Positions 350 to 1,869 of a stretch of DNA of 10,194 nucleotides are shown one piece after another (position 1 is the stretch's first letter; each line of letters starts with the position of its first letter). The position numbers were made by a program, and so were the translations under genes. The notes under the pieces were generated by a model. The model was not told the origin of the DNA. It worked only from the letters and a program-made list of their open reading frames with translations, and did not search any database. The stretch spans positions 760 to 10,953 of the forward strand of contig PKWA01000116.1 of assembly GCA_003131665.1 (NCBI GenBank), given 5' to 3'. The stretch is from Acidimicrobiaceae bacterium. GTDB taxonomy: Bacteria > Actinomycetota > Acidimicrobiia > Acidimicrobiales > RAAP-2.

Positions 350-625
350 CTAGCCCCCGGCGACCGCCGGGACCAGGGAAACCGTCTGGCCAGCTTGCAG
401 CACGGTGTCGAGTCCATCGAGGAAACGGACGTCTTCATCGGCCACAAAGACGTTCACGAAACGTCGCAGCGTCCCCCCGTCATCAAGGACTCGCCCGGCC
501 AGCCCGGGGTACTCGGCGTTGACGGCGAGAATCGCTTCTCGCACGGTGGCGGCGTCGACGGACACCTCGCCGGCTCCTCCCACGAGCGAGCGCAGTTGGC
601 TGGGCAAGCGCACGATCACGCTCAC
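350..625 (-). CDS. metO: MoaD/ThiS/CysO-family sulfur-carrier protein (MetO-like)
   Basis: This is a 91-residue ubiquitin-fold sulfur carrier. It closely resembles mycobacterial CysO as I remember it: [12 protein letters not shown] at the start, the middle segment [20 protein letters not shown], and the C-terminus LVPAVAGG. The protein stops exactly at the Gly-Gly pair, so it needs no proteolytic maturation before adenylation and thiocarboxylation by a MoeB/ThiF-type enzyme, which is not in this window. The GTG start at 625-623 overlaps the TGA stop of the upstream PLP enzyme (GTGA), which suggests translational coupling and a stoichiometric partnership. The inferred role is to deliver sulfur, as a protein thiocarboxylate, to that enzyme for homocysteine formation. 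The alternatives are a CysO-like donor for cysteine synthesis or a MoaD-like donor for molybdopterin; no molybdenum cofactor genes are nearby. Confidence 0.88.
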
Positions 626-1869
626 GACGCGGCCACTAACTGATGAAAGCGAAGGGCCTCTTCAGCCGCCTCGAGCGACGGCGCGATGGTCGAGCTGACC
701 GTGGCGCTCTCCACCACGGCGTCGAGTGTCTTGAGGCCGTGACCCGAGATGATCGCCACGATCGAGCCCTCGGGATCTATCGAACCACGAGCGATCAATT
801 GACGCAGGGTGGCGATCGTGACGCCCCCGGCCGTTTCGGCGAAGACACCTTCGGTCTTGGCGAGCAGTTCAATGCATTCGAGGGTCTCGTCGTCGGGCAC
901 TGAGCCACAGTCACCGCCGTTCGCGCGCAGTTCGTCCAGCACGTAGGGACCGTCGGCGGGATTGCCGATCGCCAAAGAGCGCGCGATGGTGTTAGGGCGT
1001 TGCGGCGTGATCACGTCGGCGCCTTGGGCAAAGGCGGTCGCGATCGGCGAACAGCCCTGGGCCTGCGCGCCAAAGAGCACGGGCGCCGTACCCTCCACCA
1101 GACCGAGTTCCACGAACTCCTTGAAACCCTTGGCGACTTTGGTGAGCTGGCTCCCGGACGCCACGGGCACCACGACTTGATCGGGCGTTCGCCAATTGAG
1201 CTGCTCAGCAATCTCATACGCCAGGGTCTTCGAACCTTCGGCGTAGTAGGGGCGAAGATTGATGTTGACAAAGGCCCAGTCGGGATGTTCGGCGACGAGC
1301 TCGACGCAGAGTCGATTCACGTCGTCGTAGGTGCCCTCGACGCCCAGTACCGTGCCACCAAAGATGGCGGTCATCGCGATCTTGGACTTCTCGAGGTCCG
1401 ACGGAATAATGGTGACGCTCGGCCAACCGAGAAAGGCCGCGTGCGCCGCCACCGACGTCGCGAGGTTGCCCGTCGAGGCGCACGCGGCAGTACTAAAGCC
1501 GAGGCGACGCGCGCTCGACAACGCCGCGGAGACCACGCGATCCTTGAACGATCCGGTGGGATTGCGAGTGTCGTCTTTCAGCCAGAGTTCGCGCACGCCG
1601 AGCACCTCGGCGAGCCGCGTGGCCCGGCGCAGCGGCGTCCACCCTGCGCCGAGGTCGACGGGTGCCTCGCCCGGGTCGGGCAACAACGCGCCGTAGCGCC
1701 ACATCGACAAAGGACCGTCGAGGATCGATTGGCGCGTGACCACCCCCCTCGCACCCGCGAGATCGTAATTGACCTCAAGGGGACCAAAGCAGTACTCGCA
1801 GACGTAGAACGCCTCGCTGGGGTAGCCGGTACCACACTCTCGACATATAAGACCTGTAGCGAAACTCAT
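622..1869 (-). CDS. thrC/metM: Threonine synthase-family PLP enzyme, probable O-phosphohomoserine-dependent homocysteine synthase (MetM-like)
   Basis: A 415-residue fold-type II PLP enzyme. An N-terminal zinc ribbon is visible (C9, C12, C24, C27), followed by the threonine-synthase core: NPTGSFKDR with the PLP lysine K109, ASTGN at 131-135, and SGHGLK at 375-380. A routine annotation would be threonine synthase. Three features argue for a different reaction. It follows a SAM-responsive riboswitch; it is coupled by a GTGA overlap to a sulfur carrier; and, compared with Mycobacterium ThrC as I remember it, the phosphate-binding GNAGN loop is replaced by ASGSQ (237-241) and the VNPVRIEG segment by LRPYYAEG (205-212). 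The likely reaction is O-phosphohomoserine plus carrier thiocarboxylate to homocysteine. The ATG at 1869 is supported by GAGG at 1878-1875, with an extended purine-rich stretch to 1872. The fold is certain; the substrate assignment is inference. Confidence 0.9.
   Translation of the reverse strand: MSFATGLICRECGTGYPSEAFYVCEYCFGPLEVNYDLAGARGVVTRQSILDGPLSMWRYGALLPDPGEAPVDLGAGWTPLRRATRLAEVLGVRELWLKDDTRNPTGSFKDRVVSAALSSARRLGFSTAACASTGNLATSVAAHAAFLGWPSVTIIPSDLEKSKIAMTAIFGGTVLGVEGTYDDVNRLCVELVAEHPDWAFVNINLRPYYAEGSKTLAYEIAEQLNWRTPDQVVVPVASGSQLTKVAKGFKEFVELGLVEGTAPVLFGAQAQGCSPIATAFAQGADVITPQRPNTIARSLAIGNPADGPYVLDELRANGGDCGSVPDDETLECIELLAKTEGVFAETAGGVTIATLRQLIARGSIDPEGSIVAIISGHGLKTLDAVVESATVSSTIAPSLEAAEEALRFHQLVAAS

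Follow-up and report, generated by a model that had tools for sequence, protein, structure and literature searches.

Does a gene that family models accept as a threonine synthase, lying directly ahead of a gene for a small sulfur carrier, make threonine or homocysteine, the precursor of methionine? The question is raised by a 10,194-nucleotide stretch of DNA (the window) from a soil bacterium of the Acidimicrobiaceae, known as a metagenome-assembled genome (MAG) of 1,917,235 bases in 162 contigs that is 80.2% complete, and whose closest relatives with names are MAGs of the Acidimicrobiaceae, many of them from samples labelled 'palsa', 'fen' or 'bog'. We conclude, with a probability of about 0.88, that the two genes are the homocysteine-making step of this bacterium, equivalent to the MetM/MetO pathway of Streptomyces albulus reportedly described by Hasebe et al. 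in 2024, and we refer to them as metM and metO. Our literature search found no paper on MetM in Acidimicrobiia, nor any on homocysteine formation with a carrier in Acidimicrobium.

The metM and metO genes

The metM gene (622 to 1869, minus strand) starts with ATG and encodes a 415-residue protein of the threonine synthase (ThrC) family, a pyridoxal phosphate (PLP) enzyme that we predict to be a homocysteine synthase. The metO gene (350 to 625, minus strand) starts with GTG and encodes a 91-residue ubiquitin-fold carrier of the MoaD/CysO type with the tail PAVAGG. The first-pass annotation had described a ThrC paralogue joined through a GTGA overlap to a carrier ending at Gly-Gly, and both reading frames are indeed present in this form, with the stop of metM and the start of metO sharing the four bases at 622 to 625 on the minus strand. 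The carrier scores 49.7 with Pfam ThiS (cut-off 22.5) and 62.7 with NCBIfam SAMP1 (cut-off 60), and its best PDB match is 3dwg_C, which we take to be the mycobacterial CysO.

The gene order was followed in two sets of genomes. Among the best 80 of 219 related loci in GTDB, all of the same lineage, the carrier gene comes directly after the enzyme gene in 77, with an overlap of 4 bases in 75 and of 10 bases in 2, and in the remaining three the enzyme reading frame is either cut by a contig end (L066) or lacks the usual stop (L044 and L084). The carrier stops exactly at AVAGG in 68 of the 77 loci, and in the other 9 has an additional C, CA, A or S. The second set comprises 119 Acidimicrobiia genomes, being 118 of at least 90% completeness plus the window's own. 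A MetM orthologue is present in 46 of the 119 at 55% identity or more, with the next group of proteins at 42% or less; the gene is incomplete in G107, G097, G027 and G039 (C-terminal piece only) and in G006, where its end is missing. In 43 of these genomes a carrier gene comes next on that strand, and the contigs of the other three stop within metM. The arrangement of enzyme, carrier and the riboswitch discussed below is not due to chance.

Gly-Gly is the terminus of 33 of the 43 surveyed carriers; 9 extend past it and one (G107) is unreadable. Tails beyond Gly-Gly are CC (L095), I (L101), CA (L103), Q (L108), C (L113), G (L114), C (L116), EAADTYM (L118) and A (L129), and these would need to be trimmed. 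We considered a link between the extended tails and a JAB protease and rejected it, as JAB is found in all 9 such genomes and also in 33 of the 37 other MetM genomes (Fisher p 0.57).

The 3' neighbour of metM-metO is the start of groEL (1 to 269, minus strand; named by eye), which runs off the window. In Nonomuraea gerenzanensis, of the class Actinomycetes like Streptomyces, the same set is found on one strand, with the switch, the enzyme and the carrier followed 780 nt on by groEL. The Nonomuraea record (NZ_LT559118.1, 11.85 Mb) is listed as a plasmid, and its size suggests a chromosome. Upstream of the window's groEL is an inverted repeat at 314 to 340, TTAGCAGTC-N9-GAGTGCTAA, which by eye resembles the CIRCE element. 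Elsewhere in the window, at 3490 to 5583 on the minus strand, is a gene whose 697-residue product carries six Flg_new (Listeria-Bacteroides) repeats and, at its C-terminus, an OmpA domain, a combination that is to our knowledge unusual for an actinobacterium.

Relationship to threonine synthases

MetM passes the NCBIfam thrC model TIGR00260 at 263.1 bits (cut-off 167.1), and also passes Pfam PALP. It could then be argued that it is a second threonine synthase, regulated by the methyl donor SAM, with the carrier serving cysteine, molybdopterin or some other pathway. Apart from the TIGR00260 score this has in its favour a cyanobacterial homologue, reported as 51.6% identical to S. albulus MetM (PMC12172450), that made threonine in vitro, with both threonine synthase and deaminase activity, and these activities count against an exclusive MetM role. 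However, the TIGR00260 model does not tell MetM from canonical ThrC, and several features of the protein and its genome separate the two.

MetM shares with the canonical ThrC proteins of known structure (PDB 6cgq, 2zsj, 1uim and 2d1f) the fold family, the expected substrate O-phosphohomoserine and the PLP lysine motif. The lysine is Lys109 (codon at 1543 to 1545, minus strand) in NPTGSFKDR, conserved in all 51 MetM rows of our alignment, and from the known ThrC fold we presume it to form the Schiff base. It differs from ThrC in two active-site segments, as the first-pass annotation had proposed. In all four solved structures GNAGN aligns with ASGSQ of MetM (residues 237-241; 1147 to 1161, minus strand) and NPxR[IL]EG with LRPYYAEG (residues 205-212; 1234 to 1257, minus strand), and the second ThrC of the window's own genome has GNAGN and INPDRIEG at these places. 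The counterpart in 1uim of the second replaced segment, numbered from the alignment, is N154-S155-V156-N157-P158-H159-R160, of which N154, S155 and R160 presumably hold the substrate phosphate, although our literature search turned up no paper on this contact; in MetM the residues at S155, N157 and R160 are Asn204, Arg206 and Tyr209 respectively.

In all, 20 alignment columns distinguish the 51 MetM from the 16 ThrC rows, each group being at least 95% fixed for a residue of its own, and these columns include positions in the phosphate loop and the substrate loop. A further difference is an added N-terminal segment with a CxxC, CxxC pattern (1789 to 1845, minus strand), zinc-ribbon-like by eye, whose cysteines 9, 12, 24 and 27 are present in 53 of 53 MetM rows and each in at most one of the 16 canonical ThrC rows.

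The tree has 78 rows (51 MetM, 16 ThrC, 9 of a third group and 2 outgroup) and is from a quick search with SH-aLRT support only. For every group there is a branch that separates it from all other rows, with values of 97 for MetM, 100 for ThrC and 99 for the third group, and the window protein falls with the 50 other MetM rows, apart from ThrC, as the first-pass annotation would have it. Nonomuraea, whose MetM is 54.1% identical to that of the window and lies inside the MetM clade, stands in for the assayed S. albulus MetM in both tree and alignment. The tree program gave a long-branch warning, which included the branch of Nonomuraea, and how the three groups branch relative to one another is for this reason not settled. 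Three plasmid genes annotated as threonine synthase, two haloarchaeal and one from Chloroflexota, have no carrier annotated alongside; both of the haloarchaeal proteins fall in the third clade. MetM has neither the GNAGN and NPxRIEG motifs nor the clade position of a canonical ThrC.

A canonical ThrC is present as well. In the window's genome there is a separate hom-thrC pair on contig C89, thrC lying behind hom, which is the second thrC that the first-pass annotation suggested looking for. Among the matches listed (at least about 142 bits), a second, ThrC-like protein is found in 42 of the 46 MetM genomes, the exceptions being G031, G055, G069 and G079, and all 10 such proteins that we examined have the ThrC motifs including GNAGN. 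We rejected a threonine synthase isozyme on the grounds of the motifs, the position in the tree and the presence of a second ThrC. The presence upstream of metM of a SAM riboswitch in 46 of 46 orthologues, and downstream of a carrier gene in every one of the 43 loci that extend beyond metM, also argue against a regulated second threonine synthase, as does the separate CysO described below, and repression of threonine synthesis by SAM would be of the wrong sign. SAM repression fits an enzyme on the methionine side, and the opposite response would be expected of one for threonine supply. We therefore consider a second threonine synthase beside an unrelated carrier improbable.

Other routes to homocysteine in Acidimicrobiia

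The carrier is not the CysO of this genome, which is encoded elsewhere in a mec-cysO-cysM operon on contig C5, has the tail GGLW and is 43% identical to MetO; metO itself is not encoded with mec and cysM.

For the acylated homoserine routes we counted MetX matches above 270 bits, scores then falling to 93 bits for the second fragment of a split gene and to 35 bits for general hydrolases. Of the 119 genomes 75 have MetX and 76 have MetY over the cut-off. MetA is present in 5, none of them with MetM, and the DUF39/COG1900 protein (HcyBio, PF01837) in none of the 119, so that neither the MetA nor the DUF39 route was retained as an alternative in MetM genomes. Both MetX and MetY are lacking in 25 of the 46 MetM genomes and both are present in 20; the last, G084, has MetX, with one TGA in the match, and a split MetY. 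The 73 genomes without MetM have MetX in 54 cases and MetY in 56, and both are thus commoner where MetM is absent (Fisher p 0.003 and 0.0004 respectively, with kinship ignored). Two qualifications apply. MetX and MetA are both lacking in 14 of the 73, and 10 of these are also without MetY, so the lack of MetX alone is no proof of another route; and metX occurs together with MetM in 21 of the 46 genomes, of which 20 have metY over the cut-off too, so that MetM is not the sole route in every case.

Within the window's genus MetX and MetY are both absent from six MetM genomes (G000, which is the window's own, and G057, G087, G103, G105 and G110), both present in G060, and present as the damaged pair in G084. 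A further genome of the genus, G051, gave no match for MetM, the SAM riboswitch, MetX, MetY, MetA or a JAB protease and has a PF02574 match; it is possibly a homocysteine or methionine auxotroph.

No real MetX, MetY, MetA or HcyBio was found in the window's genome at its 80.2% completeness. The first-pass annotation had named a lone ThrC homologue beside complete metX-metY or transsulfuration genes as the finding that would speak against its proposal, and what we see is a second canonical thrC with no MetX or MetY found. Its expectation for metX and metY was thus borne out, but a gamma-synthase/lyase-type enzyme is present. On contig C2 a cystathionine beta-synthase gene is followed by one whose product scores 593 bits with PRK07811 'cystathionine gamma-synthase' (cut-off 513). 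As plant cystathionine gamma-synthase uses O-phosphohomoserine, one could suppose that the C2 enzyme does likewise in a transsulfuration route and that MetM has some other role. However, the presence of a cystathionine beta-synthase gene beside it indicates flow from homocysteine to cysteine, and so fits reverse transsulfuration; the genome, at 80% completeness, has no second full-length PF01053 enzyme as a possible MetC; and the SAM switch is on metM, none having been found on C2 by the RF00162 search. We regard this as less probable again than the second threonine synthase.

The least probable of the alternatives, in our estimate, is a real O-succinylhomoserine sulfhydrylase (MetZ) using acylated homoserine, with the acyltransferase lost in an assembly gap. 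In its favour are the incompleteness of the MAG and about 140 residues encoded on contig C148 (L088) that resemble MetZ. But this stretch is only the middle third of a MetZ of rhizobial type, the eight plasmid records that match it best, at 61-68% identity, being from Microvirga, Sinorhizobium, Shinella and Roseomonas, and it continues in frame into the end of another protein (judged by eye to be CdsA-like), as happens in a chimeric contig, which C148 probably is. Furthermore MetX, MetY and MetA are missing from the same-genus genomes G057, G087, G103, G105 and G110, which are 96-97% complete.

With regard to the steps on either side of MetM, PF02574 (the MetH family) is present in 43 of the 46 MetM genomes, and G102 has PF01717 instead. 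G000 and G084 have neither, but in both the contig ends beside a rhodanese-ThiF gene, and in same-genus relatives metH lies about 3-5 kb beyond this gene. The window's genome yielded neither MetH nor MetE, again at 80.2% completeness. A strong ThiF is present in 43 of the 46, with none in G054 and G091, and in G000 there are only fragments, one of them at a contig end. In G102 the rhodanese-ThiF gene is directly behind metM-metO, a gene order that associates metM-metO with the activating enzyme.

The SAM-I riboswitch

The aptamer (RF00162; 1877 to 1982, minus strand) scores 45.2 bits in the window. The first-pass annotation was right that there is a SAM switch here, if only just by this score, as the gathering score is 44.4; in seven same-genus MetM relatives RF00162 is found upstream of metM at 48.6-64.2 bits. 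Its suggestion that the switch would be an addition to the MetM/MetO pathway did not hold, since S. albulus metM already has an upstream SAM riboswitch as well as its MetO partner (PMC12172450).

What does appear distinctive is the position of the aptamer. Its match ends 7 nt from the metM start codon, and in the segment 1872 to 1884 (minus strand) GATGA, the 3' strand of P1 (1880-1884), is separated by two bases from a Shine-Dalgarno-like AGGGAG (1872-1877), both of these assignments being made by hand. In all 80 GTDB loci CGATG ends 10-18 nt ahead of the matched start and an AGGTGC[CT]AA core is found within 60 nt of it. Between the end of the aptamer and the first matched codon there are 7-22 nt in 15 of the 16 MetM genomes of the window's order, the exception being G109 with 135 nt, as against at least 62 nt in all 30 MetM genomes of other orders, where the figure of 437 for G039 is inflated by the missing part of its metM. 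The P1 helix almost abutting the ribosome-binding site (window 1867-1884, minus strand, and loci L007-L086) is among the surveyed genomes seen only in the window's order. In the window there is no room between P1 and AGGGAG for a separate terminator or anti-Shine-Dalgarno helix, and this suggests, as far as sequence can, that P1 itself directly masks the ribosome-binding site. A second SAM-I riboswitch in the window's genome, on contig C153 (2684-2768, L120; 47.6 bits), has no recognised gene behind it.

Comparison with known systems and proposed pathway

The window has in common with the S. albulus system, as given in PMC12172450, a ThrC-family enzyme, a sulfur carrier gene and an upstream SAM riboswitch. 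It differs in being from Acidimicrobiia, where MetM/MetO is often the sole homocysteine route found, and in the 4-base gene overlap and the placing of the aptamer 7 nt from the start.

Two other carrier systems may be compared. In HcyS/MetY/HcyD of Wolinella succinogenes, said to have been described by Krishnamoorthy and Begley in 2011, a carrier thiocarboxylate is likewise the sulfur donor for homocysteine, but the enzyme is reportedly MetY, of fold type I and with O-acetylhomoserine as its substrate, and trimming of the carrier tail comes first, whereas the window pair has a ThrC-family enzyme and a carrier that already ends in Gly-Gly. The mycobacterial CysO/CysM/Mec system is reportedly alike in combining a carrier with a fold-type-II PLP enzyme acting on an O-phospho amino acid, but it makes cysteine, and the window's genome has that system separately.

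The pathway that we propose is as follows. A rhodanese-ThiF E1 enzyme would adenylate MetO at its C-terminal Gly-Gly and convert this end into a thiocarboxylate. O-phosphohomoserine, drawn from the threonine branch, would form a PLP adduct in MetM at Lys109 with expulsion of phosphate, and sulfur from the MetO thiocarboxylate would be added at the gamma carbon. The homocysteine released would be methylated by MetH. With SAM bound, the aptamer would stop translation of both metM and metO, a mode of control suggested by P1 abutting the ribosome-binding site. The gene content and order, their conservation, the riboswitch and the lack, within our searches, of the other known routes are observed; from these we infer the chemistry, the partnership with the carrier and the mechanism of switching, the catalytic step by extension from the reported work on S. 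albulus (PMC12172450). The case for the MetM/MetO pathway, at the probability given at the outset, is made by the switch in 46 of 46 genomes, the carrier in 43 of 46, the 25 of 46 without MetX and MetY, the second ThrC, the PF02574 and strong ThiF proteins in 43 of 46 each, the separate cysteine carrier, the gene order in Nonomuraea and the riboswitch and MetO partner of S. albulus metM. The checks that could be made on genomes, on the second thrC, on metX and metY and on the tree, have accordingly favoured the homocysteine route put forward in the first-pass annotation, with the catalytic step predicted.

Acidimicrobium ferrooxidans and annotation

The iron oxidiser Acidimicrobium ferrooxidans DSM 10331, which is in culture, was named in 2018 as having none of the traditional, DUF39 and protein-thiocarboxylate routes, its route to homocysteine being undiscovered (PMC5764234). 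Survey genome G014 (L115), which we infer to be this strain, has MetM (56% identical), the switch (60 bits), a carrier ending in AVAGG, a canonical ThrC, a PF02574 match and a strong ThiF, and profile searches found in it no MetX, no MetY over the cut-off and no MetA. It is likely that MetM/MetO closes the published gap. The broader proposition, that MetM/MetO is the sole homocysteine route across much of Acidimicrobiia including A. ferrooxidans and that the window's order has a SAM-I switch without a platform that works by masking with P1, we hold at only a little better than even odds.

The pathway itself is known. New are the lineage, the survey across the class, a likely answer to the gap in A. 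ferrooxidans and the compact form of the switch, a candidate example of SAM-I control with no separate platform. Because TIGR00260 accepts MetM, one may expect such genes to be labelled 'threonine synthase' in genome annotation, with an apparent gap left in methionine synthesis. For A. ferrooxidans, metM-metO provides a testable answer to the question of its undiscovered homocysteine route (as posed in PMC5764234), and more generally recognition of metM-metO turns apparent auxotrophs into likely prototrophs.
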